A DNA stretch of 64,000 bases from Mesorhizobium sp. B2-1-8 (GTDB lineage: Bacteria > Pseudomonadota > Alphaproteobacteria > Rhizobiales > Rhizobiaceae): contig NZ_CP083953.1 of NCBI RefSeq assembly GCF_006442545.2, positions 372,001-436,000 on the forward strand. The letters are read 5' to 3'. A model generated the notes under the pieces. It had not been told where the DNA came from and made no database searches. It saw nothing but the letters and a program-made list of their open reading frames with translations. The translations under genes were made by a program, and so were the position numbers. This document shows positions 7,642 to 43,473 of this stretch, in pieces. The stretch's first letter is position 1, and each line of letters begins with the position of its first letter.

Positions 7642-7651
7642 GAGACCCATC

Positions 7652-8212
7652 ATGCTTCAGGAACGCCACCCGCTGATGGGGCAGCGGATTTCGCTTGCAA
7701 AGCGGTCCTCCCTTACCATCCACGACGCCGAGGATTGGGCACGCTTCAACTTCCGCATCGCGCCGGAAAACCTGGGAGCTGCCTCGAAAGCCTTTGGCTG
7801 CGCACTGCCGGCGACGATCGGCGCCACGGCGACTTCGGGTGGCAGGCTGGCGCTTTGCCTCGGTCCGGACGAGTGGCAGCTCTACGCGCTGATCGCCGAA
7901 AGCCGCGCCATCGAAGCGACCTTCGCCGCTTTCTACGCGAACTGTCCGCACAGTCTGGTCGATGTCGGCCATCGCGAAATCGGCATCGCCGTCGAAGGAG
8001 AGGCGGCTGTGCTGGCGCTGCGCTCGGCTTGTGCCTTCGATTTCGACGCAATGCCTTCGGGAACCGGAACGCGCACCCTCTTCGACAAGGCGCAGGTCAT
8101 CTTGATCCGTCACGACGAGCACCGTTTCCGCATCGAGGTCTGGCGCTCATTCGCCGATCACGTCTGGGGATTGCTGCGGGCGACCAGCCGCGAAATCGCG
8201 CTCGGCATCTGA
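7652..8212 (+). CDS. soxG: Sarcosine oxidase gamma subunit
   Basis: A 186-residue subunit of tetrameric sarcosine oxidase, related in fold to part of the GcvT domain. The ATG at 7652 follows a GGAG ribosome site and begins MLQERHPLMGQRISL. Recognisable family features are ALCLGPDEWQLY in the middle and SLVDVGHREIGIAVEGEAA, where a conserved 'LVDVSHR'-type segment occurs. The open frame upstream of 7652 overlaps soxA and is not used. It completes the soxBDAG set. Confidence 0.93.
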   Translation: MLQERHPLMGQRISLAKRSSLTIHDAEDWARFNFRIAPENLGAASKAFGCALPATIGATATSGGRLALCLGPDEWQLYALIAESRAIEATFAAFYANCPHSLVDVGHREIGIAVEGEAAVLALRSACAFDFDAMPSGTGTRTLFDKAQVILIRHDEHRFRIEVWRSFADHVWGLLRATSREIALGI

Positions 8213-27752: not shown

Positions 27753-30203
27753 TCAGCTCTTCACGCGTTCGCCATTTGGATCATACCAGGGGGAGATCTG
27801 GGCTGATGCGGGATAACGCTTTAGGGCTACTTCGATCTCGACTGGTTTGTCTCTAAGGAAGGCCAGATCCACTCCATCCGCCGATGTCACGTAACCCATA
27901 GCTAGCGATGCACCCACGCGGTGGCCATAAGCCCCCGAAGTTATCGCACCTATAATTTTCCCATCGCGCAAAATCGGCTCTTGGTGATAGACTAGGGGCG
28001 CATCAGAGTTATCGAGCTTCAGCTGAATCAGCCTGCGCTTCGTCGTTCCTTTCTCTTTCTGCTGGAGAAGGGCATCTCGACCTATAAACCCGTTGGTCTT
28101 GTTCCAATCGACCGCAAATCCCAGTCCCGCCTCGAGGGGAGTGTCCTCATCGCCAATATCGTGACCCCAGTGCCGGTACCCCTTCTCCATGCGTAGCGAG
28201 TTAATGGCAAAATAGCCGCCATGGCGCAGTCTAAACTCCTCGCCCGCTGTGACCAGACAATCGAATACATGAGTGGCGAACTCGGTTGGCATGTAAAGCT
28301 CCCAGCCAAGCTCGCCAACAAATGTTAGGCGGGTGGCGCGCACACGCGCGTAACCGAGTTCGATTTCTCGGCTGGTGCCAAAGGGGAACCCTTCTGCCGA
28401 GAAATCGTCGGGAGAAACAGCCTTCAGCAAGTTTCGCGAGTTGGGGCCCATTAGAGCCAGCATCGACAGCCCTGAAGTGACATCTTGTACGAAGACGTGG
28501 GCATCTGGAGCGATATGTTTGATAAGCCACGCAAAGTCGCGCCGTTGCGACGTACCCGATGTGGCGACAATGAATTCGATTTCCGAAATTCGAGTCACCG
28601 TGACGTCAGCTTCAATGCCGCCATGGGCATTGAGCCATTGTGTGTAAACGACTTTGCCAGAAGGGACATCAATCTCATTTGCGCACAGGTAGTTGAGGGC
28701 CTTGCAGGCATCCCTACCGCGTACCAGGAATTTGACTAGGCTAGAGTGATCGAAAAGCGTGACGTTCGCCGCCGTATTACGACACTCCTCACCGCAGAGT
28801 TCAAACCAGTTCTGGCGCCCGAAGGAGTAGTCTATTGTTGGCGTGGTGCCCGGTGCTCCAAAAAAGCCGGGCCGTTCGAACCCAGCAGCCTCAGTCATGC
28901 ATGCACCTGCCGCTAAAAGCCTGTCATGAAACGGGCCGCGCCGGATATCACGTGCAGTGTTATATTGACGATATGGCCAGTGCATCTGAAGCAAGAGACC
29001 GAGACTTTCTACGGTTCGGTCATGGAGATACTTTCTATTGGACTGGAAGGACATCGTGCGGCTCACATCAACGTCGATAAGATCCATCGGGGGGCGGCCG
29101 TCGCGGATCCATTGAGCAAGCGCCTTGCCTACGCCACCCGATGCGCCGATGCCTAAAGAGTTGAACCCGGTAGCACAAAAAAGACCGGGCACCTCCACCG
29201 TCTCGCCAACGTAGTATCGATGATCGGGCGTGAAGCTCTCTGGTCCGTTGAAGAAAAGCCTAATTCCAGCTTCCTTCAGCAAGGGGACTCGCTTTGTCGC
29301 TAAATCCAATACTGGTTCAAAATGATCAAAATCAGCTGGCAGTGAATCAAAGCAGAAATCAGGGGATATACCATTATGCCCCCATGGTTTTGCTTTTGGC
29401 TCAAAGCAGCCAAGGAGAAGCTTGCCGGCATCTTCTTTATAGTACGCATACTCGTCGCTTAAGATCATTATCGGTAGATTGCGCGGCAGATCAGGGATGG
29501 GTTCGGTCACAATGTAGAAATGCTCCGCCGCGTGCAATGGAAGCGTTACACCGACCTGCATCGCGAGATCGCGTGACCACATTCCGCCGCAGATCACGAC
29601 CGTCTTCGCTCGGATCCTTCCTCTGGTTGTCTCCACGCCCGAGGTTCGACCGTTGTCAACGAGGATGCGGACGACCGGTGTGTTTTCTAGGATCCGAGCG
29701 CCGCGGTTGCGGGCGCCCTTTGCATAAGCTTGGGTCAAATCGGTCGGATTGCCTTGCCCGTCGTTTGGCATCCAGATGCCGCCTACAATTCCGTCGATGT
29801 TTATCGGCGACCAGCGTTCTTTGATTTCGCCTGGGCTCACATGATCGACCACCAAGCCGAAGTTCCGCCCCATCGAAGCGCCGCGATCCAATTCTTCCAT
29901 ACGTGCGTCCGATGTAGCAATACGCAAACAACCCTTTTGGACAAAGCCCGTCGCCTGGCCCGTTTCCTCCTCCAGCGTAGCGAACAATTCGCTTGTGTAT
30001 TTTGCAAGCTCAGTCAGTTGTCTTGTCGCGCGCATTTGCGTGACCTGCCCCGCTGCGTGCCATGTCGTTCCACAGGCCAGTTGTTTGCGTTCACAAAGAA
30101 CGACGTCGTTAATTCCGATTTTGGTCAGATGATACGCGATTGAACACCCCGCTACGCCGCCACCAATAATCACAACCTCGGCCTGCTCTGGAACGTCTGA
30201 CAT
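27753..30203 (-). CDS. Dimethylglycine/sarcosine dehydrogenase-like flavoprotein (DAO + GcvT domains)
   Basis: An 816-residue two-domain enzyme. The N-terminal FAD domain begins VVIIGGGVAGCSIAYHLTKIG; TTWHAAGQ (His49) matches the covalent-FAD histidine segment of DMGDH and SarDH. From about residue 430 to the end is a folate-binding aminomethyltransferase-like domain. It would demethylate an N-methyl amino compound, passing the carbon to THF. The ATG at 30203 gives the family length; the longer frame adds 41 odd residues. Its promoter holds a perfect copy of the operator found at the divergent kinase operon. Its DNA looks less GC-rich than its neighbours. Confidence 0.9.
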   Translation of the reverse strand: MSDVPEQAEVVIIGGGVAGCSIAYHLTKIGINDVVLCERKQLACGTTWHAAGQVTQMRATRQLTELAKYTSELFATLEEETGQATGFVQKGCLRIATSDARMEELDRGASMGRNFGLVVDHVSPGEIKERWSPINIDGIVGGIWMPNDGQGNPTDLTQAYAKGARNRGARILENTPVVRILVDNGRTSGVETTRGRIRAKTVVICGGMWSRDLAMQVGVTLPLHAAEHFYIVTEPIPDLPRNLPIMILSDEYAYYKEDAGKLLLGCFEPKAKPWGHNGISPDFCFDSLPADFDHFEPVLDLATKRVPLLKEAGIRLFFNGPESFTPDHRYYVGETVEVPGLFCATGFNSLGIGASGGVGKALAQWIRDGRPPMDLIDVDVSRTMSFQSNRKYLHDRTVESLGLLLQMHWPYRQYNTARDIRRGPFHDRLLAAGACMTEAAGFERPGFFGAPGTTPTIDYSFGRQNWFELCGEECRNTAANVTLFDHSSLVKFLVRGRDACKALNYLCANEIDVPSGKVVYTQWLNAHGGIEADVTVTRISEIEFIVATSGTSQRRDFAWLIKHIAPDAHVFVQDVTSGLSMLALMGPNSRNLLKAVSPDDFSAEGFPFGTSREIELGYARVRATRLTFVGELGWELYMPTEFATHVFDCLVTAGEEFRLRHGGYFAINSLRMEKGYRHWGHDIGDEDTPLEAGLGFAVDWNKTNGFIGRDALLQQKEKGTTKRRLIQLKLDNSDAPLVYHQEPILRDGKIIGAITSGAYGHRVGASLAMGYVTSADGVDLAFLRDKPVEIEVALKRYPASAQISPWYDPNGERVKS

Positions 30204-30279: not shown

Positions 30280-30308
30280 ATCAATGCACAAACGATTGTT
30301 CTTGTCAA
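30280..30308 (-). promoter_or_regulatory. Promoter of the DMGDH-like gene with embedded LacI-type operator
   Basis: On the minus strand TTGACA (30303-30308) and ATTGAT (30280-30285) are 17 bp apart, and the spacer is exactly AGAACAATCGTTTGTGC (30286-30302). The same 17 bases occur in inverted orientation at 30758-30774 in front of the divergent kinase gene. A repressor bound here would lie between -35 and -10. Confidence 0.7.
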
Positions 30309-30443
30309 TGACAGGGCCTTTATCAACCAAAGACAGCTACGGCTGATTAGACGATGATGCCGCCATCTGGGCTTCGGCGCATCTGACGAGCATTACGCGC
30401 CGTATCTTTGCAATCGTCTCCATGGCCAACATCCAAAACACAA

Positions 30444-30468
30444 ATGCCTCCGATCAAACCGGAGGCAT
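30444..30468 (-). terminator. Minus-strand intrinsic terminator without an obvious gene
   Basis: Perfect 9-bp stem ATGCCTCCG/CGGAGGCAT, loop of 7. Read on the minus strand it is followed by TTGTGTTTT, so it is oriented to stop leftward transcription. The only minus-strand frame ending nearby stops at 30510 and encodes an unrecognised short tail (ending ANTVIFRGMRTLFEG), possibly the 3' remnant of a lost gene. Confidence 0.55.
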
Positions 30469-30757
30469 CTTGATGCCCCCATCGTTAAGGGGTCCAGTTT
30501 GGACGAAAATCACCCCTCAAACAGGGTCCTCATTCCACGAAAAATCACAGTATTGGCTGTTTCAAGCGTGATGATGAGTGGTGCCCGTCCTCGCGCAAGC
30601 TCGCCGAAACCATCCGCCACGTCCGGCATAGTAGACCTTCCCGGCTTGTTGACGGTCCAGACAGAGCGAGGCTATCCGGCGTGGTTTGGCACCATCCACT
30701 CGACAATACCATCGGAGCCCTGCTGGTCCATTTCCGCAGAAGCCCCTGGAATGCACG

Positions 30758-30797
30758 AGAACAATCGTTTGTGCTTGCTCAAATCCTGCGCTATAGG
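30758..30797 (+). promoter_or_regulatory. Kinase-operon promoter with LacI-type operator
   Basis: The operator AGAACAATCGTTTGTGC (30758-30774) contains the near-palindrome ACAATCGTTTGT. It overlaps a -35-like TTGTGC (30769-30774), which is followed after 17 bp by TATAGG (30792-30797). The start ATG is at 30841. The arrangement is the same as at the class III aminotransferase promoter. Confidence 0.65.
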
Positions 30798-30840
30798 GAG
30801 GTTGTGGCCGTCAGCCGCGGCCGCCACCGCAGGAGAGTTC

Positions 30841-32322
30841 ATGGCGGAACGATTTCTGGGAATCGACCTGGGCTCGGGCAGCCTCAAGGCGACGGTCATC
30901 GATGGGCGTGGCGAAGTGATCGACGCTGCCTCCGCCAGCCTTATGACGAGCTATCGCCATCCGGGCTGGGCAGAGCAGGATCCGAAGGAATGGATCGCCG
31001 CAATGTCCTCCGCCCTGAAGTGCCTTGCCGAGAAAGGCAGCCTGCAGGGCGTTACCGCGGCGGCGGTCTCTTCCGGAACTCATATCGTGGTGCTCGTCGA
31101 CGAGAAGGGTGAGATTCTCCGCCCCGCCATCCTCTGGAGCGATCAGCGCAGCGCCGCGGAATCGGCTGAGTTGGTCCGGCTGTACGGCGAGCGCATCCTG
31201 CAGGTCGGCTATCAGAAGGCGAATCCGACGTGGACCCTGCCGCAGCTTCTGTGGCTGCGCCGACATGAGCCCCAGATCGTCTCGCGTGTCCACCGGGTCT
31301 ATCCCGCCAAGGATTATCTGCGCTTCTTCCTCACCGGGCGCTGGGAGACAGACTACGTGGACGCCGCCGGCACGCTAATGCTGGACATGGCGGCAAACGC
31401 GTGGTCGCCCGAACTGGCAGAGATGATCGGCTGGGATCTGTCGACCATGCCGCCGATCGGCAGTCCGTTCGCTCTTGCCGGCACGGTAACGCCGCAGGCG
31501 GCGACGATGACTGGCCTTGCCGAGGGAACTCCCGTCGTCATGGGGGCTTCGGACAGCTCGGTGGAGATGTTGACCGCGGGCGCGGCCGAACCCGGCCTGG
31601 CCGCGATCAAGCTCGCGACTGCGGGTGTCGTCGCCGTGGTGTCAGAGAAGGCGCATCCGCATGCGGACCTGCTGAACTATCGCCATATCGATCCCGACTA
31701 CTGGTACGTGGTGGCGGCGACCAATTCCTGTGCGTCAGCGCATCGCTGGCTCCAGGAGAATCTGGTCACTGGCCATGATGGCTTCGTCGAGCTCGACCGG
31801 CTTGCTGCGTCGGTGGAGCCGGGCGCTGAGGGCCTGATTTTCCACCCGTTCCTGAACGGGGAACGTTCGCCCTACTGGGACACGCAATTGCGCGCCGGCT
31901 TCCTTGGCATGTCGATGCGGCACGGCCATGCCCACTTTGTGCGCGCGCTCTATGAGGGGATCGGGTTCTCCCTGCTCGACTGCCTCAACTCCCTGCCGAA
32001 GGAGCTCGGGGCCCTGCGCGAGGCGAGGATCATCGGGGGAGGCGCGCGCAGCCCTGTCTGGCGCCAGATCATTGCCGACATCTTCCGCATTCGGGTCGTC
32101 TGGCCAGAGAACGACGATGCTTCCTTCGGCACCGCGCTGCTCGCCGCCGTGGGGATCGGCCAGTTTCCTTTCGTGCGGGATGCGGTGCGGACTTGCGTGC
32201 GGTTCAGAAAGGTCTGCGAGCCGAATGATGCTGCGGCGGAAGTATACGCAAGTCGGTATCCTTTTTATTGCGAGACAGTGAAAGCACTGCAGCCTTTATA
32301 CCGAAAATATACGGTGGCGTAG
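30841..32322 (+). CDS. FGGY-family carbohydrate kinase (xylulokinase-like)
   Basis: A 493-residue kinase. The N-terminal phosphate loop is FLGIDLGSGSLKATVID, WSDQRS marks the substrate domain, and GASDSSVEMLTAGAA contains the family catalytic-region Asp; GGGARSPVWRQIIADIF is the C-terminal ATP-binding segment. The ATG at 30841 follows AGGAG; the open frame continues 114 codons upstream through the promoter and is not real. It phosphorylates a sugar or polyol, but family membership does not give the substrate. First gene of a LacI-controlled operon. Confidence 0.9.
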   Translation: MAERFLGIDLGSGSLKATVIDGRGEVIDAASASLMTSYRHPGWAEQDPKEWIAAMSSALKCLAEKGSLQGVTAAAVSSGTHIVVLVDEKGEILRPAILWSDQRSAAESAELVRLYGERILQVGYQKANPTWTLPQLLWLRRHEPQIVSRVHRVYPAKDYLRFFLTGRWETDYVDAAGTLMLDMAANAWSPELAEMIGWDLSTMPPIGSPFALAGTVTPQAATMTGLAEGTPVVMGASDSSVEMLTAGAAEPGLAAIKLATAGVVAVVSEKAHPHADLLNYRHIDPDYWYVVAATNSCASAHRWLQENLVTGHDGFVELDRLAASVEPGAEGLIFHPFLNGERSPYWDTQLRAGFLGMSMRHGHAHFVRALYEGIGFSLLDCLNSLPKELGALREARIIGGGARSPVWRQIIADIFRIRVVWPENDDASFGTALLAAVGIGQFPFVRDAVRTCVRFRKVCEPNDAAAEVYASRYPFYCETVKALQPLYRKYTVA

Positions 32323-32337
32323 AGTTAGGAGTGGACT

Positions 32338-33786
32338 ATGCTTAAGTCAAAATTGCTTGATATGATGATCCTGAACGAGATCATCGGTATCGTGGGGCGC
32401 GACCATACGTTCACATCCGCGTCGGATCGCCTGTCCTACAGCCTGGATACCTACTGGGCCCCGCGCGCGCTGCTCGATCTGGGCGCCGAGCCAGACCTGC
32501 CGGATGTCGTCGTGGCGCCTGGGTCTGTGGAAGAGGTGGTGGAGTTGATCAAACTCGCCAACATCTACCGCATTCCCGTGATCCCGTTCGGCGGCGGGTC
32601 CGGATCGCAAGGCGCCATACTGCCTGTCTATGGCGGTATGGTCATCGATTTGAAGCGCCTCAAGCGGATCATCAACATCGACGAGGTGTCGGGCACGGTC
32701 ACCGTGCAGGCCGGAATTGTCGGCTATGACCTGGAGGCCGCGTTGAATGCGCGCGGCTGGACCTTTCCGCACTATCCCGCCTCGGTTCATGCCGCGACGA
32801 TCGGCGGCAGCCTTGCTTGCCGTGGCTCCGGCACGGTGTCCACGAAATACGGGAAGGCAGAAGATCTCGTGCTTTCGGTCGAGGTGGTGCTGCCCAACGG
32901 CGACGTGATGCGGACTCTGCCGGTGCCGAACCATGCGGCGGGTCCGGGCATCCTGCAAAATTTTGTGGGGGCGGAGGGCATCTTCGGCATTGTCACAGAG
33001 GCAACGCTGCGGATCACCCCGTTGCCGCAAACGCGTCGCTTCACGGCTTTCCTGTTCCCGGACCTTGCCTCGGGCATGGAGGCAGGCCGACGGATCATGC
33101 ATGCCGACCTGCGCCCCTGCGTGATGCGTCTCTACGACGAAGTCTCGACGGTCAAGACCGTCAAGAATGTGCTCGATCTCGACGTCAGCAAGGGGGCCTA
33201 CCTCGTGATCGGCTTCGACGGCTTCGAGGACATCGTCGACGTCTGCGAACGCAGGGCCATCGAAATCTGCAGGGAATTCTCAGCTGCGCCGCTCGGTGCA
33301 GAGGCCGGGATGAAATGGTGGGACAACCGCTACAACTTCTATTATCCGCCCAAGGCGCTCGATGTTCCGTGGATGTTCGGAACACTCGATACCGTTACGA
33401 CCTACAACAACATCATGAAATTATACACGAATAAGCGAGAGCGGCTCACCCAGGCCTTCGCCGAGTACGACCTCTACTATTACGCGCATTTCTCGCACTG
33501 GTTTCCTTGGGGCGTCATGGTCTACGACCGCTTTGTCATCGAGAAGCCGCCACAAGACAAGGAAGAGGCCATTCGCCTTCACGACGCTGTGTGGAACATG
33601 TCCACCGCGATCAACCTCGAATTTGGCGGGGTCCTCAATGAGCACCATGGCGTCGGACTCAAGCTGGCGCGCCATGTGCGCAGACAATACGGCGCCGGGT
33701 TCCAGGTCATCGAGGCAATCAAGGATGCGGTTGACCCGCATCACCTCATGAACCCTGGCAAGATGGGATTTGGGCCGACGCAATGA
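32338..33786 (+). CDS. FAD-binding oxidase, GlcD/alkyl-DHAP-synthase-like (VAO fold)
   Basis: A 482-residue flavoprotein with a PCMH-type FAD domain: PDVVVAPGSVEEVVELIKLA, then IPVIPFGGGSGSQGA (FAD pyrophosphate loop), and HAATIGGSLACRGSGTVSTKYGKAEDLV. The C-terminal half ends in VDPHHLMNPGKMG, the usual tail. It resembles GlcD and alkyldihydroxyacetonephosphate synthase; it probably oxidises a hydroxy compound. Starts at 32338 or at Met9/Met10. It overlaps the next gene by four bases (ATGA), a GlcF-like protein, suggesting a two-subunit enzyme. Confidence 0.85.
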   Translation: MLKSKLLDMMILNEIIGIVGRDHTFTSASDRLSYSLDTYWAPRALLDLGAEPDLPDVVVAPGSVEEVVELIKLANIYRIPVIPFGGGSGSQGAILPVYGGMVIDLKRLKRIINIDEVSGTVTVQAGIVGYDLEAALNARGWTFPHYPASVHAATIGGSLACRGSGTVSTKYGKAEDLVLSVEVVLPNGDVMRTLPVPNHAAGPGILQNFVGAEGIFGIVTEATLRITPLPQTRRFTAFLFPDLASGMEAGRRIMHADLRPCVMRLYDEVSTVKTVKNVLDLDVSKGAYLVIGFDGFEDIVDVCERRAIEICREFSAAPLGAEAGMKWWDNRYNFYYPPKALDVPWMFGTLDTVTTYNNIMKLYTNKRERLTQAFAEYDLYYYAHFSHWFPWGVMVYDRFVIEKPPQDKEEAIRLHDAVWNMSTAINLEFGGVLNEHHGVGLKLARHVRRQYGAGFQVIEAIKDAVDPHHLMNPGKMGFGPTQ

Positions 33787-34922
33787 AGGATCATGCAATG
33801 CTGCTGTCTGATTTTCGGTCACAAGTGGCCGCTCTGAGATTTTGTCCGATGCTCGCTCCAGCTGGTGAAGTGGCTGCAGTGTCCGAATGCGACGGACATA
33901 CGCTTCGTGCGCGAAGTGTGATGCTGTGGCGCGCCCTCGAGCGGGGATGCGCTCTGGACGGCCGCTCGACGGAGCTGCTGTTCCAGTCGACGCTGGACAG
34001 CATCAGCCAAGCTTACGACCCGTACCACGCACCGGTCTGGCAAATAATGCGAGCGGCCAGGGCCGATGCGGTCTTGACTGGCGGCGTGCCGGAACCTGTA
34101 GCGGCAGCGCTGGCCGAGCTCGCGAAGTTCGCGGCGCCATCCGTGCCGCAGGCGAAGCGAATCATGCTGCTGGGCGAGATAGTCTTGTTCGGCGGTGACG
34201 CCTCGCATGGGAAATCATTGGCGGAAGCCCTGCGTGTAGCGGGACATGGGGACGTGGAGCCCTGGCCTGCCCTGACGGGCGCGACGGCCCTTGCGTTCGG
34301 AGATCGCGAGCTGGCCCGCCGGCAAGCCGAAGCGATCGCCGGCGGACTCGCGAATTCGGTGGTCGAGGAGGTTATCTGCGACAGTCCCGAGACCTTTTGG
34401 GCGCTCAGTTCCATGTTCGCGGATCTGGAAGTGAAGCTTCCCGACACGATACAGGTCAGCCTTTTTTCCCGGCTGCTGGCGGACTCAGGGGTCGCGCCGA
34501 AGAAAAGCAACCGCACTGTCTACGTGCATGACTCGCGAGCGTCATATCTGCTGCGCGAGGGTGAGGCCGATTCGGTCACGCTCAAGCCTGGCTTCCGTTG
34601 GGAGCCTGAGGCAAGAGAGGAGTTGTGCGGCTCTGGCGCCGTTTATGAGCATGTTCGCGTGGTGGCCGATACTGCCTACGACCGGCGGGAATGGGACCTG
34701 TGGACGCGCGGGCTGGCGAAGTCCTGTGGTTCTGACGACGGGCTCTGGATGAGCTATCCGGAGACCGCAAGAAAGTTGGCCCTTGCCCGGCTGGATGATG
34801 CCGTGGAATTGCAGGCCGACGTGATCGTCACCGATTCGCCGCTTGCGGCCTGGTGGCTTGCGAAGAACCGTCAGCCGAGACATCCTGCGGTCGCGTGGCT
34901 GCCCGAACTGTTCGGGAACTAG
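33783..34922 (+). CDS. GlcF/CCG-domain-like protein lacking the Fe-S cysteines
   Basis: A 379-residue protein that a quick look would leave as hypothetical. Its layout follows GlcF-type Fe-S subunits: RGCALDGRSTELLFQSTL-like N-terminal helices, then a C-terminal stretch VYVHDSRASYLL...SCGSDDGLWMSYPETARKLA...ADVIVTDSPLAAWWL that aligns by eye to the CCG pattern HDPCHL, CCGAGGG and CPFC. Nearly all ligand cysteines are replaced (Pro-Cys-His by Ser-Arg-Ala, CCG by SCG, CPxC by SPLA), and no CxxCxxCxxxCP ferredoxin motif is present. Probably a structural partner of the preceding FAD oxidase without a cluster. Confidence 0.6.
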   Translation: MKDHAMLLSDFRSQVAALRFCPMLAPAGEVAAVSECDGHTLRARSVMLWRALERGCALDGRSTELLFQSTLDSISQAYDPYHAPVWQIMRAARADAVLTGGVPEPVAAALAELAKFAAPSVPQAKRIMLLGEIVLFGGDASHGKSLAEALRVAGHGDVEPWPALTGATALAFGDRELARRQAEAIAGGLANSVVEEVICDSPETFWALSSMFADLEVKLPDTIQVSLFSRLLADSGVAPKKSNRTVYVHDSRASYLLREGEADSVTLKPGFRWEPEAREELCGSGAVYEHVRVVADTAYDRREWDLWTRGLAKSCGSDDGLWMSYPETARKLALARLDDAVELQADVIVTDSPLAAWWLAKNRQPRHPAVAWLPELFGN

Positions 34923-34952
34923 ACTGGCCGTGTAAGCAGATTGGAGTGAAGA

Positions 34953-35972
34953 ATGAGGAGAGCCACGCTCGCAGATGTCGCGCAACATGCGAGGGTGGAC
35001 ATGTCAACCGCTTCACGGGTGCTACGTGGCGACTCGGAGCAGCGTGTTTCCCAGGAGACACGCGCCCGCATCCTCGCGTCGGCCGAGGCGCTTGAATATG
35101 TGCCCAATATGCTGGCACGGGGATTGAAGAATGCCAGAAGCTACACGATCGGCATCACCATTCCCCAGCTCGACAATCCCGTTTTCTATGACGCCATCCA
35201 GGGCGCGGCAGCGGCGCTGAAAAATCGGGGTTATTCGCTCGTCATCAACTATGTGAACCCATCGGAGAAAGACGAGAACCTCTACAAGAAGCTCGTACAG
35301 CGCCGCATGGTCGACGGGCTGCTCGTCAGCGGGTTCGACACCGGCGAGGACCTGGAAAAGGAGCTGAACGACCTCGGCTTTCCGCATGTGACACTCAACC
35401 GCGATGTGCCGGGCGCGCGCTTTTCGGTCTCTCACGACAACCAGACCGCTGCCATGATGGCGGTGGATCATCTCCTGGAACTTGGCCATCGCCGCATTGT
35501 GCACCTTGCCGGGCATCAGGGTGGTGTCAACGCCATGGCGCGGCTCGCCGGCTACAAGCGCGCGCTGGAACGCGCTGGCGTCGCCTACGACGAGTCCCTG
35601 GTGGAGCTTGCCGGCTATACGGCGGCCGGTGGCGCGACTGCGATGAAACGAATCCTCGAGCGCGTCTCGCCACGGCCCACGGCCATTTTCGCGGCGACCC
35701 TGATGAGCGCCGCGGGGGCCTTGCAGGTGATGCACGAGAAGGGAATCGACATACCCGGCGAGATGTCCATGATCAGTCTGCACGACGCTCCATTCGCCAG
35801 CCTGGTCTATCCACCCCTGACGACCGTTGCCCTGGCCAATGAGGAGATGGGGCGCGCCGCCGCCGAACTGCTCCTTGAGGTCATCGAGGGCAGCCACAAC
35901 GTTCCCAGACGAATTGTCCTGTCCCCAGTTTGCTTGACGAGGCGTGCATCGACCGCCGCCGCAAAGGCCTGA
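34953..35972 (+). CDS. LacI-family transcriptional repressor
   Basis: A 339-residue repressor with the N-terminal HTH ATLADVAQHARVDMSTASRVL (3-23) and hinge, then a periplasmic-binding-protein-like ligand domain (YTIGITIPQLDNPVFYDAIQGAA). It lies downstream of the kinase and oxidase genes and upstream of the importer. Four operator-like sites with core ACAATCGTTTGT surround it at the DMGDH, kinase, importer and aminotransferase promoters; this protein is the obvious candidate to bind them, and would relieve repression when the imported solute or its phosphate is present. Confidence 0.92.
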   Translation: MRRATLADVAQHARVDMSTASRVLRGDSEQRVSQETRARILASAEALEYVPNMLARGLKNARSYTIGITIPQLDNPVFYDAIQGAAAALKNRGYSLVINYVNPSEKDENLYKKLVQRRMVDGLLVSGFDTGEDLEKELNDLGFPHVTLNRDVPGARFSVSHDNQTAAMMAVDHLLELGHRRIVHLAGHQGGVNAMARLAGYKRALERAGVAYDESLVELAGYTAAGGATAMKRILERVSPRPTAIFAATLMSAAGALQVMHEKGIDIPGEMSMISLHDAPFASLVYPPLTTVALANEEMGRAAAELLLEVIEGSHNVPRRIVLSPVCLTRRASTAAAKA

Positions 35973-36065
35973 CGCGTCCCACTGTAGGCGCACGGCTTCC
36001 GACGTTTGCTCGACGCCTTTCCGAATACTTCGCTTCCTTTCCACGCAATCGCCGGCCCTGCGCGC

Positions 36066-36111
36066 TTGACATGGCTCAATATCCACGAATAGGATGAGCC
36101 ATCGTTTGTTC
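36066..36111 (+). promoter_or_regulatory. Importer-operon promoter with LacI-type operator
   Basis: TTGACA (36066-36071), 18-bp spacer, TAGGAT (36090-36095), then GAGCCATCGTTTGTTC at 36096-36111, which matches the kinase operator (GAACAATCGTTTGTGC) at 13 of 16 positions. The site would cover the transcription start. The importer ATG is 71 bases downstream. Confidence 0.6.
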
Positions 36112-36182
36112 AAAGCGTTTTTTGCCGCATCTCGAGGGTTCAACAACCGGCGGTAGGCAGAAGTTGACTACGGAGAACCGGT

Positions 36183-37256
36183 ATGGACGGCACACTGCTG
36201 GAGTACAGGGGCATCTCCAAGAGCCATGATGGCTCTACGATGGCCGTCCGCGATATCGACCTTCGGGTTCGGCGTGGGGAGTTCCTCACGCTGCTCGGCC
36301 CGTCCGGTTCGGGCAAGAGCACGCTGCTCATGATGACGGCTGGCTTCGACGAGCCGACCCGCGGCGAAATCTTCTACGACGGGGCATCAATGCGCAATGT
36401 TTCGCCCGGCAGGCGGAACATGGGCGTGATCTTTCAGAGCTATGCGCTGTTTCCGCATATGACGGTGGCGCAAAACATAGCCTTTCCGCTGCGCGTCCGC
36501 GGCAACGCGAAGGAGGAGATCCGTCGGCGAATTGAGAGGCAGCTGGCGCTGGTGCACCTCTCTGGCTATGGCGACCGCAAGCCCGGCCAGCTTTCCGGTG
36601 GGCAACAGCAGCGCGTTGCCTTGGCGCGCGCCCTGGTGTTCAGCCCGAACCTTGTCCTGATGGACGAGCCGCTCAGCGCACTGGACAAGAAGCTGCGCGA
36701 GCACATGCAGGTTGAAATCAAGCGAATCCAGCAAGAGACGGGCGTCACCGTCCTGTTTGTCACTCATGACCAGGGCGAGGCTCTGGCGATGTCGGACCGG
36801 ATCGCCGTGTTCAATGCCGGCAGGCTGGAACAGGTCGGGACTCCGGAGGAAATCTATCGGAACCCCGCGACGGAATTCGTTTCCACCTTCATCGGCAGCA
36901 ACGGCACGACCCAGGGAACCGTGCGTGAACGCCGGGGAGACCGCTACGTGGTTCAGATCCATGGCGGCGAACAGATCGAGGTCCGGGACAACTCGCATAT
37001 CGAGACCGGCAGCCGCGTGAAGGTCATGGTCCGGCCCGAAGATGTCATGCTGGGAAACGAAGAAACGGTGAACCGGCTGACTGCGGTCGTCGACGGCATC
37101 AGCTTCCAGGGCGACCACTACAAGGTTCAGCTGCGGGTGGGAAATTCCGACATCCTGTACGGCAAGGTCTCTCCGGAGGACCGGGGCCGGGTTGCTTTTG
37201 GGAAGAACGTGCCGATCGCGATCTCGCGTGAGGTTAGAATGTTTCGTCACGACTAG
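36183..37256 (+). CDS. ABC transporter ATP-binding protein, Pot/Ugp type
   Basis: A 357-residue ATPase: Walker [10 protein letters not shown] near residue 41, [19 protein letters not shown], Walker [14 protein letters not shown], and a C-terminal TOBE domain ([13 protein letters not shown]). First gene of an importer operon (ATPase, binding protein, two permeases) followed by a class IV aminotransferase. The order and protein types match spermidine/putrescine-like importers, which also carry opines, phosphonates and amino-polyols, so the solute is open. Confidence 0.92.
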
Positions 37257-37275
37257 CGCTAAAAAGGGGAGTAAA

Positions 37276-38319
37276 ATGAAACACAGCAGAAAGATGTGCC
37301 TGGCCGCCGTGGTTGCATTGGCGGTTTGGAGTACGGGAGCCGTCGCGGAGACTCTTACGGTAACCGCGGGGGGAGGAGCCTTCCAGGACACGCTCAGGGA
37401 GGTCTACTTCGAGCCATTCAAGAAGAAGTTCAACGTCGATCTGGTCGAGGATCAGTACAGCTATGAGCTGTCCAAGATCAAGGCGATGGTGGACTCTAAC
37501 AACGTGACCTGGGATGTCGTGAACACCGACTCCAATATGGTCATCATCGGCTGCGAGCAGGGGCTGTTCGAAAAGCTGGACTATTCGCAGATCGGTCCGA
37601 AGGATGACTTCATCAAGTTCGGGGCCATGGACTGCGGCGCGGGCAATGTCGTTGCGTCGACGATCTTCTTCTATGACAAGGAGAAGTTTACGGGCGAAAC
37701 GCCCAAGACCCTGCAGGACTTCTTCGATCTCCAGAAGTTCCCGGGCAAGCGCGGGATGTGGAAGCGTCCCTACGTGAATCTGGAATGGGCGCTGATGGCT
37801 GACGGAGTTCCGAAGTCAGAAGTCTATAAGGTTCTGGCGACCGAGGAAGGCCTGGAGCGAGCCTTCAAGAAGCTGGACACCATCAAGTCGGAGGTCATCT
37901 GGTGGGAGGCCGGCGCACAGCCAGCGCAGCTGGTCGGCGCGGGCGAGGCGGTGATGTCCACGGGCTGGAACGGCCGCATCGACAATGCCATCAAGGAAGG
38001 CCGGACCTTCCAGATCGTCTGGGACGGGCATGCGATCGACCTGAATTACTGGAGCATCGTCAAGGGCAGCCCGAACAAGGATCTGGCGATGAAGTTCATC
38101 CAGTTCGCCTCCGAGCCCGAGGTGATGAAGAACCATTCGAGCGTCGCCTCCTATGGCCCGAGCCGCAAGTCGGTCGGCGAGATGATCGATCCGGACCAGG
38201 CCGAGAAAATCCCGACCTCGAGCAAGAACATCGATCTCGGCTACTCCTATGACCCCGAGTTCTGGGCGGAGCACGGCGAGGAGCTTGTCCAGCGCTTCAA
38301 CAACTGGTTGGCACAGTGA
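37276..38319 (+). CDS. ABC transporter periplasmic binding protein, PotD-like
   Basis: A 347-residue binding protein. The signal peptide MKHSRKMCLAAVVALAVWST ends with GAVAE (cut after Ala25). The mature protein begins TLTVTAGGGAFQDTLREVYF, a family 1/PotD-like lead, with DVVNTDSN and GQPAQLVGAGEAVMSTGWNG-like segments. The ATG at 37276 follows AAGGGGA and gives a proper signal peptide; the earlier frame overlaps the ATPase. A strong hairpin follows within 31 bases. Confidence 0.9.
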   Translation: MKHSRKMCLAAVVALAVWSTGAVAETLTVTAGGGAFQDTLREVYFEPFKKKFNVDLVEDQYSYELSKIKAMVDSNNVTWDVVNTDSNMVIIGCEQGLFEKLDYSQIGPKDDFIKFGAMDCGAGNVVASTIFFYDKEKFTGETPKTLQDFFDLQKFPGKRGMWKRPYVNLEWALMADGVPKSEVYKVLATEEGLERAFKKLDTIKSEVIWWEAGAQPAQLVGAGEAVMSTGWNGRIDNAIKEGRTFQIVWDGHAIDLNYWSIVKGSPNKDLAMKFIQFASEPEVMKNHSSVASYGPSRKSVGEMIDPDQAEKIPTSSKNIDLGYSYDPEFWAEHGEELVQRFNNWLAQ

Positions 38320-38349
38320 TCCAGCAGAAGCCTGATTGGGTTGGTGTAT

Positions 38350-38375
38350 CGCCTCCCCGGATTTCCGGGGAGGCG
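38350..38375 (+). terminator. Intercistronic hairpin after binding-protein gene
   Basis: A perfect 11-bp GC-rich stem CGCCTCCCCGG/CCGGGGAGGCG with loop ATTT, between the binding-protein stop and the permease start. No T-tract. It resembles the stabilising structures that raise binding-protein over permease expression in other ABC operons. Confidence 0.65.
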
Positions 38376-38395
38376 ACCTGTCCGAGCGTGCGTGC

Positions 38396-39574
38396 ATGAT
38401 GCGCCGTCTCAGGCCGATCTTGCTGTTATCGCCGGCCGCCGGTTTGCTGCTTGCGGCATTCATCCTGCCGATAGCGATGATGCTGACGGCAAGCGTCGAT
38501 AATTCGGAGAACGTCTCGCGGCTTCCAAGGCTGTCGGAGGTGCTCCGGTCCTGGGACGGCAACGCGCTTCCCGGGCCCCCGGCCTATGTGGCGTTAGCCG
38601 AAGACCTCCTTGACTCTTCGCGGACCAACCAGATTTTGCGCCTGTCGGACGACCTGGGTAAGGAGTTTCGGCCTCTGAAACGCCTTGTCCGGCAGACTGC
38701 CTCCCAACTGGAAGAGAGCCCGACTGGGGATCCGGTCGAAATCCTGCATGCCATCGACGACAGGTGGGGGGAGGTCGAAACCTGGAAGCAGCTTCAGGTT
38801 GCCACCCGTCCCTATACCGACCGGTATCTGCTGACTGCGCTTGATCTCCGCAGGAACGACGCGGTGGAGATCGCCCGGGTCAGCGAAAGCCAGCGGACCT
38901 TCGTCACTGTCGCGCTGCGCACGGTTTCCGTCGCGCTGATAGTCACGCTGGCGAGCCTGCTGATTGCTTTCCCGCTTGCCTATTTCATGGTCACCCGATC
39001 AGACCGGGTAAGGAAGATCGTCTTTCTGCTGGTGCTGATCCCGTTCTGGACGTCGGTCCTGGTCCGGACCGTGGCCTGGATGGTGATCCTCGGCAACAAT
39101 GGCCTGCTAAAGACGGTGATCGGCCCACTCTGGCCCGGCGTTGGCGATGTTCCGCTGATCTACACGCGCCTGGGAGCGCTGTTGGCGATGATTCATATCC
39201 AGGTGCCTTTCACCCTGCTTCCTATCTATGGAGTCATGGCGGGCATCTCTCCCGCTTACATGCGCTCGGCGCTTTCGCTGGGCGCATCCCGTACCTATTC
39301 ATTCTGGCGGGTTTATGCACCGCTGACGATCCCCGGCGTGGTTGCAGGCTGCTTCATCTCCTTCATCGTGTCGTTGGGCTATTACATCACTCCAGCCCTG
39401 GTCGGCGGACCGCGTGATCAGATGCTGAGCTATTTCATCGCCTACTACATCAATATCGAGCTGAACTGGGGCATGGCTTCGGCCCTCAGCCTTGTGCTCA
39501 TCGTCATCGCTTCGCTGGCCATGGTTTTCTACGGCCGCTACGCGATGCGTTCCACATTCGATCCGGCGAAGTGA
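38396..39574 (+). CDS. ABC transporter permease, PotB type, with large extra-membrane insert
   Basis: About 392 residues from the ATG at 38396 (38399 is also possible), clearly longer than the roughly 280-300 of ordinary PotB. After the first membrane segment (ILLLSPAAGLLLAAFILPIAM) there are about 130 mostly charged residues before the remaining segments start at VALRTVSVALIVTLASLLIA. The ATPase-contact loop ALSLGASRTYSFWRVYAPLT is intact. The insert should lie on the periplasmic side and might contact the binding protein. It overlaps the next permease at GTGATG. Confidence 0.88.
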   Translation: MMRRLRPILLLSPAAGLLLAAFILPIAMMLTASVDNSENVSRLPRLSEVLRSWDGNALPGPPAYVALAEDLLDSSRTNQILRLSDDLGKEFRPLKRLVRQTASQLEESPTGDPVEILHAIDDRWGEVETWKQLQVATRPYTDRYLLTALDLRRNDAVEIARVSESQRTFVTVALRTVSVALIVTLASLLIAFPLAYFMVTRSDRVRKIVFLLVLIPFWTSVLVRTVAWMVILGNNGLLKTVIGPLWPGVGDVPLIYTRLGALLAMIHIQVPFTLLPIYGVMAGISPAYMRSALSLGASRTYSFWRVYAPLTIPGVVAGCFISFIVSLGYYITPALVGGPRDQMLSYFIAYYINIELNWGMASALSLVLIVIASLAMVFYGRYAMRSTFDPAK

Positions 39575-40413
39575 TGAGCGCGTCCCTCGAATCCGTGCTG
39601 GGTAAGCTGGTGCTTGTCACGAACATTCTGCTGCTGCTGTTCCTTGTCCTTCCGATTTTGGTCATCATCCCCATCTCGTTCAACGACCTGAACCTGGTCG
39701 GCTATCCGATCGGAGAGGTTTCGCTGCGATGGTACCGGGGGTTCATTTCCTCCGACCAGTGGCAGCGGGCGCTGAAGAACAGCCTTGTCGTTGGATTGAC
39801 GACGGTGGCCATCGCGACGCCGCTCGGCTATCTCGCCGCAGTCGGCCTCTATTACATCACCGACAAGCGGCTGCGCTCTCTCGTAAACTTCTTCCTGGTC
39901 CTGCCGATCATGGTGCCGGCGGTCGTTTCGGCGGTCGGCATGTACTATGCCTTCAACATGATCGGCATTGCCGGCACGCAGTTCGGCGTGGCGCTTGCGC
40001 ACACGTCGCTTGCCATCCCCTTCGCGGTGATCGCGTCGACTGCCTCGCTGGTCAATCTCGACCGGAGAATGCTCTATGCCGCCGAGAGCCTTGGCGCGTC
40101 GCACCTGCGGACGATCTGGTCGGTCATACTGCCGAATACGATCCCGGGCATTTTCGCCGCGGCGCTGTTCTCCTTCGCGACCTCGTGGGACGAGGTCGTC
40201 ATCGCGCTGTTCCTGACCGGGCCGGACGGCAAGACGATCCCCGTCCAGATGTACAGCGCGCTACGTGAGGAATTCAGCCCGATGATTGCCGTGGTTGGCA
40301 CAATCTTGTTCTTCACGACGATCATCGTCGTTGTCGGAATCGAGGTCCTGTCGACGATCCTCCAGCGCCGCGCCCGGGAGGCGAAACCAGTCCCGGCAGA
40401 AAAGGACCGTTGA
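39574..40413 (+). CDS. ABC transporter permease, PotC type
   Basis: A 279-residue permease, second half of the channel. Six hydrophobic segments, and the contact loop AAESLGASHLRTIWSVILPN in the expected place. The ATG at 39574 overlaps the preceding stop (TGATG); a GTG one codon earlier is possible. It is followed one base later by a class IV aminotransferase gene. Confidence 0.92.
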   Translation: MSASLESVLGKLVLVTNILLLLFLVLPILVIIPISFNDLNLVGYPIGEVSLRWYRGFISSDQWQRALKNSLVVGLTTVAIATPLGYLAAVGLYYITDKRLRSLVNFFLVLPIMVPAVVSAVGMYYAFNMIGIAGTQFGVALAHTSLAIPFAVIASTASLVNLDRRMLYAAESLGASHLRTIWSVILPNTIPGIFAAALFSFATSWDEVVIALFLTGPDGKTIPVQMYSALREEFSPMIAVVGTILFFTTIIVVVGIEVLSTILQRRAREAKPVPAEKDR

Positions 40414-40414
40414 G

Positions 40415-41338
40415 ATGAGCGATGCTAATGGCCAACCCTATGCGAACGGCGCCGCCTATGTCGACGGCCAGTATTACCCGATCGGCGAAGCGAAGATCTC
40501 CATCCTCGACTGGGGATACCGCAGATCGGACGTGACGTATGACGTCGTGGGCGTTTGGAACGGAGCCTTTTTTCGGCTGGACGACCACATCCGCCGGTTC
40601 CGTGCTTCGATGAACCAGTTGCAGCTGTCGCCACCCGAATCCGACGAGGAGATCAAGCAGGTTCTCACGAAGCTGATCCGCCTGTCTGGATTGCGCCATT
40701 CCTATGTCGGCATGGACTGTGTGCGTGGTACGCCCCCCGCGGGCGCGCCGCGGCATCCGAAGTACGCGCGGAACTATCTTGTCTGTCATGCGCTCCCGTG
40801 GATCTGGATAGCACCGAAGGAAAAGATCGACGCGGGGCTTTCCCTCTACATCGCTGGCCCACGGAGGATCCCTCCTGAATCCTTCGAGCCGCGGGTCAAG
40901 AATTTCCACTGGGGCGACCTGACACGCGGGCAGTTCGAAGCCCTCGAGGCCGGCGCAGACTTCGCAGTGTTGCTGGACGAGGCGGGGAATGTGACCGAGG
41001 GCGCGGGCTTCAACATCTTTTGCGTGACGGACGGCGTAGTTGCGACCCCGTCCCGCGGTGGCCTCGACGGCATCACCCGCATGTCAGTCATGGAGCTGTG
41101 CCAGGAACTGGGCCTGCCGCTGGGGGTGCGCCCCGTCTCGGCGGAAGAATTCCGCAACGCCGACGAGATTTTTGGATGCACCACGGCCGGCGGAATCCTT
41201 CCCGCGACGTGCATCGACGGGCGCATACTCGGCAACGGAAGCCCGGGGCCAATCTCTAGTCTCATCAAGGATCGGTTCTGGAACAAACGCGCCGAAGGCT
41301 GGCTTGCCACGCCAATCGATTACGACTCGCCTCTCTAG
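40415..41338 (+). CDS. Class IV PLP aminotransferase, (R)-selective amine transaminase-like
   Basis: A 307-residue fold-type IV transaminase. The PLP lysine is Lys162 in EPRVKNFHWGDLTRG. RRSDVTYDVVGVWNGAFFRLDDHI near the N-terminus and DEIFGCTTAGG near the C-terminus agree closely with my memory of (R)-amine transaminases such as the Arthrobacter enzyme, rather than with branched-chain or D-alanine aminotransferases. It is the last gene of the importer operon, so it probably deaminates the imported amine or its product. The claim of stereo-preference is motif-based only. Confidence 0.8.
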   Translation: MSDANGQPYANGAAYVDGQYYPIGEAKISILDWGYRRSDVTYDVVGVWNGAFFRLDDHIRRFRASMNQLQLSPPESDEEIKQVLTKLIRLSGLRHSYVGMDCVRGTPPAGAPRHPKYARNYLVCHALPWIWIAPKEKIDAGLSLYIAGPRRIPPESFEPRVKNFHWGDLTRGQFEALEAGADFAVLLDEAGNVTEGAGFNIFCVTDGVVATPSRGGLDGITRMSVMELCQELGLPLGVRPVSAEEFRNADEIFGCTTAGGILPATCIDGRILGNGSPGPISSLIKDRFWNKRAEGWLATPIDYDSPL

Positions 41339-41539
41339 GGGCGGCATCCGATCAAGCCGCATCGCACCCTGCCGCCTCGCAGCGGTTCGGCGATGCCGCG
41401 TGAGTGCAAAGGTCGACCCGGCATCGGACGGCGTCCAGCCTTGAGGTGCTCTGATTTGGCCTTTCTCCGAGGCGACCTGGCGCGAGCGTTACCCCAGGAG
41501 CCAACCGGGCCACCCGTCTCGGGGCCCAGCTCGCCAGTC

Positions 41540-42919
41540 TCAGAGTGTGTGGCCGAACGTCTCGTAGGTATCGTCGAGCGCTCGACACAGGCGCGACACC
41601 ATATCCTCCACCTGGTCGGCATCGATGATCAGGGGCGGGCTAAGCGCGATGGTGTCGCCGAGGGCACGAAGGATGAGGCGCTGCTCCTGCTGGGCGCGCA
41701 TCGCCAGATGAGCGCCCACCGCGCCAGCCGGATCGAATGGTCGCTTCGTGGCCTTATCGGCGACGAGTTCGATTCCAGCAATCAGGCCAATCCCTCGTAT
41801 TTCGCCCACCATGGGATGATCGGCGAACTCGCCAAGGCGCTCGTGCAGCAGGGCCCCCATCCGTCGGGCATTCTCGACCAGGCCGTCTTCCTCGATAATG
41901 CGAAGATTGGCCAACGCGGCAGCGGTTGCAACCGGATGCCCGGCCGTCGTGTAGCCGTGCCCGAAACTGCCGGCCCGGTCCGTCTCGTCGGCGACATGCT
42001 GGTATATCGCATCGCTGATCAGCAGCGCCGACAGCGGCTGGTATGACGAGGTGATCGCCTTCGACAGCGTCATCATGTCCGGATCGATGTCAAACACATC
42101 CGATCCGAACAGCTGCCCCAACCGGCCGAAGCCATTGATCACCTCATCGACCACGACCAGGACGTCATACTTGCGGCAGACCGCCTGGACCTTATCCCAG
42201 TAGCCGGTGGGGGGAACGATGACGCCGCCGCCTCCCATCAGTGGCTCTCCCAGAAAGGCTGCGACGGTGCTCGGCCCTTCCCGGAGGATGACCTCTTCCA
42301 ACTCATTTGCGAGCCTGGTGGAGAATTCCTCCTCGGTCTCTCCGGCTAATGCGTTCCGGTAGTAGTGCGGACAAGTTACATGGATGAAGCCAGGCAAGGG
42401 CAGGCCAAAACCGTGATGATTGATGGGGTTGCCGGTCAGACTCGCGGCTGCGACTGTGATGCCGTGGAAGGAAGGAGACCGAGAGATGAACTTCCGCTTC
42501 TGGGGCATGCCGCGGGAATGGTTGTAGTACCATGCCACCTTTATGGCAGTGTCGTTGGCCTCCGATCCCGAATTCGCGAACAGCACGTGCTGCAGGCGCC
42601 TTGGTGTCATCTGCACCAGCTTTTCTGCGAGATCGATGGCCGGGCCGTGCGACTTGTTCATGAAGGTATGGTAGAAGGGCAACTTCTCCATCTGTTCGGC
42701 CATGGCCCGGATCAGGCGTTCGTTCCGGAATCCGACCGCGACGCTCCATAGCCCGGCCAGGCCCTCGATATACTGGTTACCCTGATCGTCGTAGACGTAG
42801 ATGCCTTCTCCCCGATCGATGACTAGCGGGCCCAAGCTTTCGTGCTCGCGGAAATTGCTGTTGGGGTGGGTAAGGTAGGCGATGTCTCGCGCGGCGGCGG
42901 AATTCGGAACGGTGGTCAT
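41540..42919 (-). CDS. Class III aminotransferase (omega-transaminase family)
   Basis: A 459-residue fold-type I PLP enzyme. The PLP lysine is Lys287 in MTLSKAITSSYQPLSA; LVVVDEVINGFGRLG precedes it; FANSGSEANDTAIK binds the cofactor phosphate. Close relatives act on beta-alanine, putrescine, taurine or aromatic amines with pyruvate. It is transcribed from a promoter that carries the same LacI-type operator as the kinase and importer operons, so it belongs to that pathway although it points the other way. It converges on the class IV aminotransferase gene with a 201-base gap. Confidence 0.9.
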   Translation of the reverse strand: MTTVPNSAAARDIAYLTHPNSNFREHESLGPLVIDRGEGIYVYDDQGNQYIEGLAGLWSVAVGFRNERLIRAMAEQMEKLPFYHTFMNKSHGPAIDLAEKLVQMTPRRLQHVLFANSGSEANDTAIKVAWYYNHSRGMPQKRKFISRSPSFHGITVAAASLTGNPINHHGFGLPLPGFIHVTCPHYYRNALAGETEEEFSTRLANELEEVILREGPSTVAAFLGEPLMGGGGVIVPPTGYWDKVQAVCRKYDVLVVVDEVINGFGRLGQLFGSDVFDIDPDMMTLSKAITSSYQPLSALLISDAIYQHVADETDRAGSFGHGYTTAGHPVATAAALANLRIIEEDGLVENARRMGALLHERLGEFADHPMVGEIRGIGLIAGIELVADKATKRPFDPAGAVGAHLAMRAQQEQRLILRALGDTIALSPPLIIDADQVEDMVSRLCRALDDTYETFGHTL

Positions 42920-42975
42920 GACAGGACGCTCGGCCTCGCTTGCTCTTCTTAAGGGAGACGTAGGGAACGAAGGCG

Positions 42976-43012
42976 ATACTACCCTAAAGATAGAGTCTGC
43001 ACAAACGTTTGT
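42976..43012 (-). promoter_or_regulatory. Class III aminotransferase promoter with LacI-type operator
   Basis: The perfect 12-bp palindrome ACAAACGTTTGT (43001-43012) lies in GAACAAACGTTTGTGC on the minus strand, 15 of 16 identical to the kinase operator. TTGTGC (minus strand, 42999-43004) and TAGTAT (42976-42981) are 17 bp apart, repeating the -35/operator arrangement of the kinase promoter. Confidence 0.7.
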
Positions 43013-43177
43013 TCGCAGACCGCCAGCGTTCTCAGGCGCGAATTGCGCAGCACAAAATGACGTTTTAGGGTCTCGATGAGGGCGGCGTGAATCGTGCTTG
43101 GCATGGGAGGATCCTTTTGGCGAAGAATCCTCTATTCAATCACTCCAAGCCGTCCTCACCCTTGCGTCGTGTACTGT

Positions 43178-43455
43178 GCTAGAGGCTGGGGGCCGAGGAG
43201 CAAGTGCCTGCGCGGCCGTGCTCCGCATGGCCACTGGCGCATGCTGACCTTTCTCGGCTCCTTATGCTGCGACCGGCTTGCTGCGCCATGCGTCTTGGAC
43301 GGACCGATCAACGGACGGTGCTTCAGAGGCTGTGTCGAGCAGCAGCTCCTGCCCGTGCTCGACCCCGGCGACATCGTCATCGTGGATAATCTCGGCTCGC
43401 ACAAGGCCGCCGCTACCCGGCAGATGATCCGCGGCACCATTGCCAGGCTCATCCG
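43178..43455 (+). pseudogene. IS630-family transposase fragment
   Basis: About 90 codons of a DDE transposase: RGWGPRSKCLRG, HGHWRMLTFLGSL, APCVLDGPINGRCF and PGDIVIVDNLGSHK (second catalytic Asp region) are recognisable. Both the N-terminal half and the C-terminal catalytic Glu part are missing; similarity stops near 43455, just before the end of the oppositely oriented ABC gene. It is a relic marking an old insertion or rearrangement between the LacI-controlled region and the peptide-importer region. Confidence 0.8.
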
Positions 43456-43473
43456 ACCGAAGACTCCAGGGTC

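Follow-up and report, generated by a model that had tools for sequence, protein, structure and literature searches.

The window, a stretch of 64,000 nucleotides of Mesorhizobium sp. B2-1-8 (positions 372,001 to 436,000 of NZ_CP083953.1, a 494-kb contig designated C2 here), contains the gene of a LacI-family regulator together with genes for a dimethylglycine dehydrogenase (DMGDH)-like protein, an FGGY kinase, a GlcD-like flavoenzyme, a protein of 379 amino acids (aa), an ABC importer and two aminotransferases of classes III and IV. These genes would be arranged in four units: DMGDH-like (minus strand); kinase, glcD, 379-aa open reading frame (ORF) and lacI (plus); importer and class IV transaminase (plus); and class III transaminase (minus). 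Similar palindromic sites with the character of operators precede all four units (Table 1). The proposal that a single regulator joins them is well supported, and we consider it very probable that the four sites are operators of this LacI, which would repress the units until an effector releases it.

Table 1. Genes, candidate operators and promoter of the LacI cluster (positions are those of the window).
Feature	Coordinates	Strand	Remarks
DMGDH-like protein, unit 1	27753-30203	minus	Pfam: FAD oxidoreductase, GCV_T and GCV_T_C; nearest solved structures dimethylglycine dehydrogenase/oxidase
Candidate operator 1	30286-30301	minus	GAACAATCGTTTGTGC; 82 bp ahead of DMGDH-like start; relatives' matrix score 26.4, tied with operator 2
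Candidate operator 2	30759-30774	plus	GAACAATCGTTTGTGC; 66 bp ahead of kinase start; relatives' matrix score 26.4
FGGY kinase (XylB-type), unit 2	30841-32322	plus	opens the unit
GlcD / alkyl-DHAP-synthase-like FAD-linked oxidase, unit 2	32338-33786	plus	
379-aa protein, unit 2	33783-34922	plus	without Pfam family at threshold
LacI-family regulator, unit 2	34953-35972	plus	closes the unit, under operator 2
Importer promoter	36066-36095	plus	TTGACA-18-TAGGAT, 10/12 consensus (promoter scan)
Candidate operator 4	36096-36111	plus	GAGCCATCGTTTGTTC; degenerate left half; directly past the -10; 71 bp ahead of importer start
ABC importer, unit 3	36183-40413	plus	PotA-like ATPase, PotD/MotA-type binding protein, two permeases
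Class IV aminotransferase, unit 3	40415-41338	plus	nearest solved structures amine transaminases, several (R)-selective
Class III aminotransferase, omega-transaminase type, unit 4	41540-42919	minus	nearest solved structures omega-transaminase-type
Candidate operator 3	42999-43014	minus	GAACAAACGTTTGTGC; 79 bp ahead of class III transaminase start; relatives' matrix score 26.9, rank 1

All four candidate operators were even palindromes with a central CG, located 66-82 bp ahead of the first start codon of their unit. A motif search of the window returned exact copies of GAACAAWCGTTTGTGC at operators 1, 2 and 3. The initial annotation had described exact inverted copies at 30286-30302 and 30758-30774, a near-match with a palindrome at the class III aminotransferase promoter (43001) and a 13/16 match at 36096, and all of these were borne out. 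The 17-mer AGAACAATCGTTTGTGC had one copy per strand, marking the DMGDH-like promoter and the kinase promoter (operators 1 and 2 lying 473 bp apart), operator 3 contained the palindrome ACAAACGTTTGT with coordinates and letters as described, and operator 4 differed from the motif of that annotation by three mismatches and by two from GAACAAWCGWTTGTTC, the consensus of the sites found in relatives. With palindromes scored on both strands, the window held 7 matches with at most three mismatches vs. 0.72 expected, a number reached in none of 100 shuffles.

The whole genome (6.87 Mb, two contigs) was then the search space. The three strong sites were the sole places with at most two mismatches to GAACAAWCGTTTGTGC (one place for the reversed control pattern), and GAACAAWCGWTTGTTC gave five places at the same tolerance, four of them being the operators of the window and the fifth, on contig C1, adjoining a tRNA-like sequence. 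Since the searches with GAACAAWCGTTTGTGC and GAACAAWCGWTTGTTC placed nearly all matches there, the operator motif is confined to the LacI cluster; a scatter over the genome irrespective of promoters, which the initial annotation had named as the outcome that would speak against a regulon, was not seen. Two places were considered as extra regulon members and rejected as unlike a target: C1:764493 (AGACAATCGATTGTGT), overlapping the start of a flavin-oxidoreductase-looking reading frame, and C1:1151596 (GGACAATCGATTATTC), adjoining what by eye, without a tRNA search, resembles a tRNA gene. Exactly three mismatches to the relatives' consensus were found at 33 places, many of which may be due to chance, as the reversed control pattern already gave 13 places with at most three mismatches vs. 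38 for the consensus.

Orthologs of the regulator, sought with a cut-off of E <= 1e-70, were present in 5 other genomes among 297 of the family and in 6 others among 397 of the order. The gene is rare: among 385 genomes of the class, none besides that of the window carried it at E <= 1e-80. At the 11 ortholog loci, which belong to four families, LacI identity was 43-52%, and the operator was conserved alongside the regulator in nine of them, as a site of 14-16 of 16 letters, near GAACAAWCGWTTGTTC, just upstream of a glcD homolog (GAACAAACGATTGTTC in L014, L015 and L016; GAACAAACGATTGTGC in L028 and L029; GAACAAACGATTGCGC in L030; GAACAAACGTTTGTTC in L032 and L033; GCGCAAACGTTTGTTC and GAGCAATCGATTGGTC in L017). 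That orthologs in four families adjoin the same motif supports the link between regulator and site. The recognition helix of LacI reads VDxST[AV]SR in the sequences with a site. In genome G809 (L022/L031), where glcD is present, the helix is VSLAAVSR; no site of at least 12/16 was found there and a different palindrome, GGTAAATCGTTTTAGC, occupies a like place, so that a changed helix going with an absent site would count in favour of the LacI-motif link. The remaining locus, in G252, had no site on its 3.8-kb contig, which lacks a glcD match. In four congeners without this LacI there was no place within one mismatch of the relatives' consensus. A more distant LacI relative (34% identity) in a Streptomyces stretch, L004, was accompanied by the similar palindromes GAACAATCGATTGTGC (7647-7662) and GGACAATCGATTGCGC (7727-7742), neither glcD nor a kinase being matched at E <= 1e-10; it was left out of the matrix described below.

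The motif was also searched on its own, as GMACAAWCGWTTGTKC, in the 397 genomes of the order, with the reversed pattern as control. It matched in 13 of them, and the control in one genome (G907) among the matches listed. A glcD homolog adjoined the site in seven of the 12 other genomes (G971, G1053, G912, G1071, G938, G959, and G923). In two (G853 and G961; L076 and L077), GAACAATCGATTGTGC lay beside a different lacI (25-27% identical), and other LacI groups may therefore share this operator type; in the last three (G1080, G1101, and G1131), the stretches fetched matched none of glcD, kinase and LacI. LacI ortholog and exact motif occurred together in five genomes, LacI only in two, the motif only in eight and neither in 382 (Fisher P = 3e-7, or 7e-6 without the genome of the window, assuming that both searches drew the same 397 genomes). 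Counted as motif only were G938 and G959, whose LacI relatives of 41-42% did not appear among the ortholog matches.

A symmetric matrix, made only from the ten sites of the relatives with near-identical ones down-weighted, was run over the window. The four operators ranked 1-4 of all positions (26.9, 26.4, 26.4, and 20.4), the fifth position reaching 10.4; over 200 shuffles the best score averaged 13.1, with a maximum of 21.3, and the expected number of places scoring no lower than the 36096 site is 0.005 per 64 kb. From the start of TTGAC to the operator there were 29-31 bp in nine relatives and 30 bp at 36096, a spacing that is probably the ancestral layout. The 36096 site begins 124 bp past the end of lacI, and in six of the nine relatives the LacI match ends about 48-330 bp ahead of the operator (L032 and L033 have theirs 1.9 kb further on, and the order in L017 ends with lacI). 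Because both the TTGAC spacing and the place past lacI resemble those of the relatives, the favoured reading of 36096 is that of the old operator position, its left half having decayed, with the three strong sites in other promoters.

Each site had been said by the initial annotation to overlap a plausible -35/-10 pair. This stood firmly at the importer, where the promoter scan found the pair given in Table 1, and less so elsewhere: the scan gave no promoter at the DMGDH-like, kinase and class III transaminase operators, where weaker pairs were recognized by eye (TTGACA-17-ATTGAT, TTGTGC-17-TATAGG, and TTGTGC-17-TAGTAT, respectively). Operator 1 is one base past the TTGACA element (30303-30308), and the final six bases of operator 2 could act as the -35 of the kinase pair.

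By analogy with the LacI family, the regulator would act by repression rather than activation and would most likely bind the operators as a dimer. RNA polymerase would be blocked by operators between or on the likely promoter elements of the DMGDH-like, kinase and class III units, and at the importer by an operator just past the -10. The effector that releases LacI would probably be the imported compound or a breakdown product; binding, effector and substrate are all predicted here from the DNA and protein sequences. As lacI closes the kinase unit, under operator 2, it would limit its own synthesis (negative autoregulation). Relatives carry one operator ahead of glcD (two in G118), and for this reason the regulon appears to have been rearranged here and extended to further units.

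The regulon is of an ordinary, well-known kind. In the figures given by Ravcheev et al. (2014; PMC4052901), upstream distances of 30-140 bp apply to >75% of LacI-family sites, 72% of LacI regulators are autoregulated, 31% and 38% control one or two units, respectively, and 96% of the groups with an assigned pathway concern carbohydrates. The cluster resembles the local catabolic regulons of that account in its 16-bp even palindrome with central CG, the distance of 66-82 bp upstream, the few operons and the regulator gene inside the regulon. It differs from them in having four units, not one or two, and in targets that would point to an amine-bearing compound instead of a carbohydrate. Closer to it are the glcD-FGGY kinase clusters of G139, G203, G258, G971, G1053, G1117, G1071, G912, G938, G959, and G118, with LacI ortholog, GlcD-like flavoenzyme, FGGY kinase, ABC ATPase and operator. 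These differ in having one operator per stretch (two in G118) vs. four in the window and, in the loci annotated (L028 and L030 by NCBIfam, L014 by eye), a short-chain dehydrogenase/reductase (SDR) and a glycerol-dehydrogenase-type gene downstream; the binding protein of the window was matched only in G118 among them.

Several points weigh against the regulon as proposed. Judged by consensus, all promoters but that of the importer are weak; the left half of the 36096 site is degenerate and one of the 200 shuffles scored higher than this site (21.3 vs. 20.4); the TTGAC-to-operator distances are raw values without a chance control; among the 12 other genomes in which the exact motif occurs, five lack a glcD next to it, so that the motif is not exclusive to this LacI group; and the Fisher test ignores the relatedness of the genomes. 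In addition, the class III transaminases of L017 and of the window share only 31% identity, and tblastn detected neither a DMGDH-like gene nor a class IV transaminase in the surroundings fetched for the relatives' clusters (at most 20 kb). The three mismatches and broken left half of 36096, as well as the higher-scoring shuffle, would fit a relic, only the three strong sites being operators and the importer and class IV transaminase being expressed constitutively or by readthrough from the kinase unit. This seems rather unlikely to us: the relatives' matrix puts the site fourth with a wide gap to the fifth, and both its distance to TTGAC and its position past lacI are those of operators in relatives.

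The sites could also belong to another LacI paralogue of the genome, in which 36 LacI candidates appeared at a first look (7 of them scored). CG-centred palindromes of LacI type are common across the family, as far as PMC4052901 describes it, and the related form GAACAATCGATTGTGC adjoins a different lacI in two genomes, as mentioned above. We hold such an assignment to be very improbable, given that orthologs of the LacI of the cluster adjoin the motif in four families and that the sites are confined to the neighbourhood of this gene. Real operators need not serve one pathway, and it is conceivable, if doubtful, that an amine-demethylating enzyme and transaminases were grouped with an unrelated polyol pathway, or that the DMGDH-like gene is a recently captured bystander. 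Its absence, and that of the class IV transaminase, from the clusters of relatives would agree with this, as would the DNA matching IS21-associated stretches between DMGDH and kinase; against it, operator 1 is an exact copy with a TTGACA element one base away, and the importer family, both transaminases and the DMGDH-like enzyme would all suit amine substrates. We retain one LacI with four operators as the preferred reading.

The LacI protein (339 aa) showed PF00356 (N-terminal helix-turn-helix) and PF13377/PF00532 (periplasmic-binding-protein-like effector domain) above cut-off, with a C-terminal end near that of its relatives as read off the alignment. Metagenome contigs encode LacI proteins that are 96% and 88% identical to it (P0002 and P0003). 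The 379-aa protein had sub-threshold weak matches to SBD_N (E 0.054) and to a CCG domain (E 0.27), the latter of which would agree with a GlcF-type partner, now decayed, for the GlcD-like flavoenzyme. No significant solved relative was found for it (4 matches, best E 0.1), nor any relative at E <= 1e-30 among 98 congeners, and its single-sequence AlphaFold2 model (mean pLDDT, the per-residue confidence, of 39) was not used. The nearest solved structures by sequence to the binding protein of the importer were MotA, polyamine, γ-aminobutyric acid (GABA) and agropine binding proteins. As it was matched at E <= 1e-90 in 37 of the 297 family genomes, that of the window included, this protein alone is no marker of the regulon. 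Contig C2 carries another importer of this type about 50 kb upstream (L092 7593-11779; G000:C2 ~359.6-363.8 kb), with a binding protein 44-47% identical and no site of at least 13/16 in its 20-kb stretch.

Mobile DNA was seen in two places. Within the interval that separates the DMGDH-like gene from the kinase, at 30309-30549, pieces of 75-152 bp match Mesorhizobium plasmids at ~93-97%, with an IS21 istA annotated under three of the plasmid matches listed; the segment is probably an insertion remnant between two operators. A DDE_3 transposase fragment (43094-43618) lies beside the class III transaminase promoter and perhaps marks the edge of the cluster. The DNA of 27000-48700 gave only short matches to plasmids, covering at most 3% of the query among 20 listed of 38 records, of which 14 were from Mesorhizobium.

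The initial annotation had united the enzymes in a single pathway. This is supported only in part: glcD, kinase, a class III transaminase, a homologous PotD-type importer (binding protein 52% identical) and lacI occur together in L017, and the link to the DMGDH-like protein and to the class IV transaminase is through operator or operon position only, and in this one genome. The glcD-kinase core may handle a polyol-like compound, possibly so because both genes are accompanied by an SDR and a glycerol-dehydrogenase-type gene in relatives, L087 (by eye) adding to the three loci named above. A hydroxylated amine is the probable substrate of the window's regulon; such a compound, perhaps N-methylated, would agree with the nearest structures of the binding protein, both transaminases and unit 1. 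We tentatively suggest that an ancestral one-operator polyol-type LacI regulon may have been rebuilt in this lineage so as to comprise four units, to limit itself and to serve an N-methylated or amino polyol, perhaps an opine-like one. The DMGDH-like, kinase and class III transaminase promoters would have gained operators, and the one at the ancestral start site would have decayed to a weak site. A MotA/polyamine-type importer, an N-demethylating DMGDH-like enzyme and (R)-amine/omega-amine-type transaminases would then act before the FGGY kinase and the GlcD-like oxidase.

The operators group enzymes that annotation keeps apart, and they offer a testable gene set for a nutrient that is probably amine-bearing: the importer, two transaminases, the DMGDH-like enzyme, the kinase, the flavoenzyme and the 379-aa protein. 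The motif alone, used as a query, also uncovered glcD-type clusters in other families.

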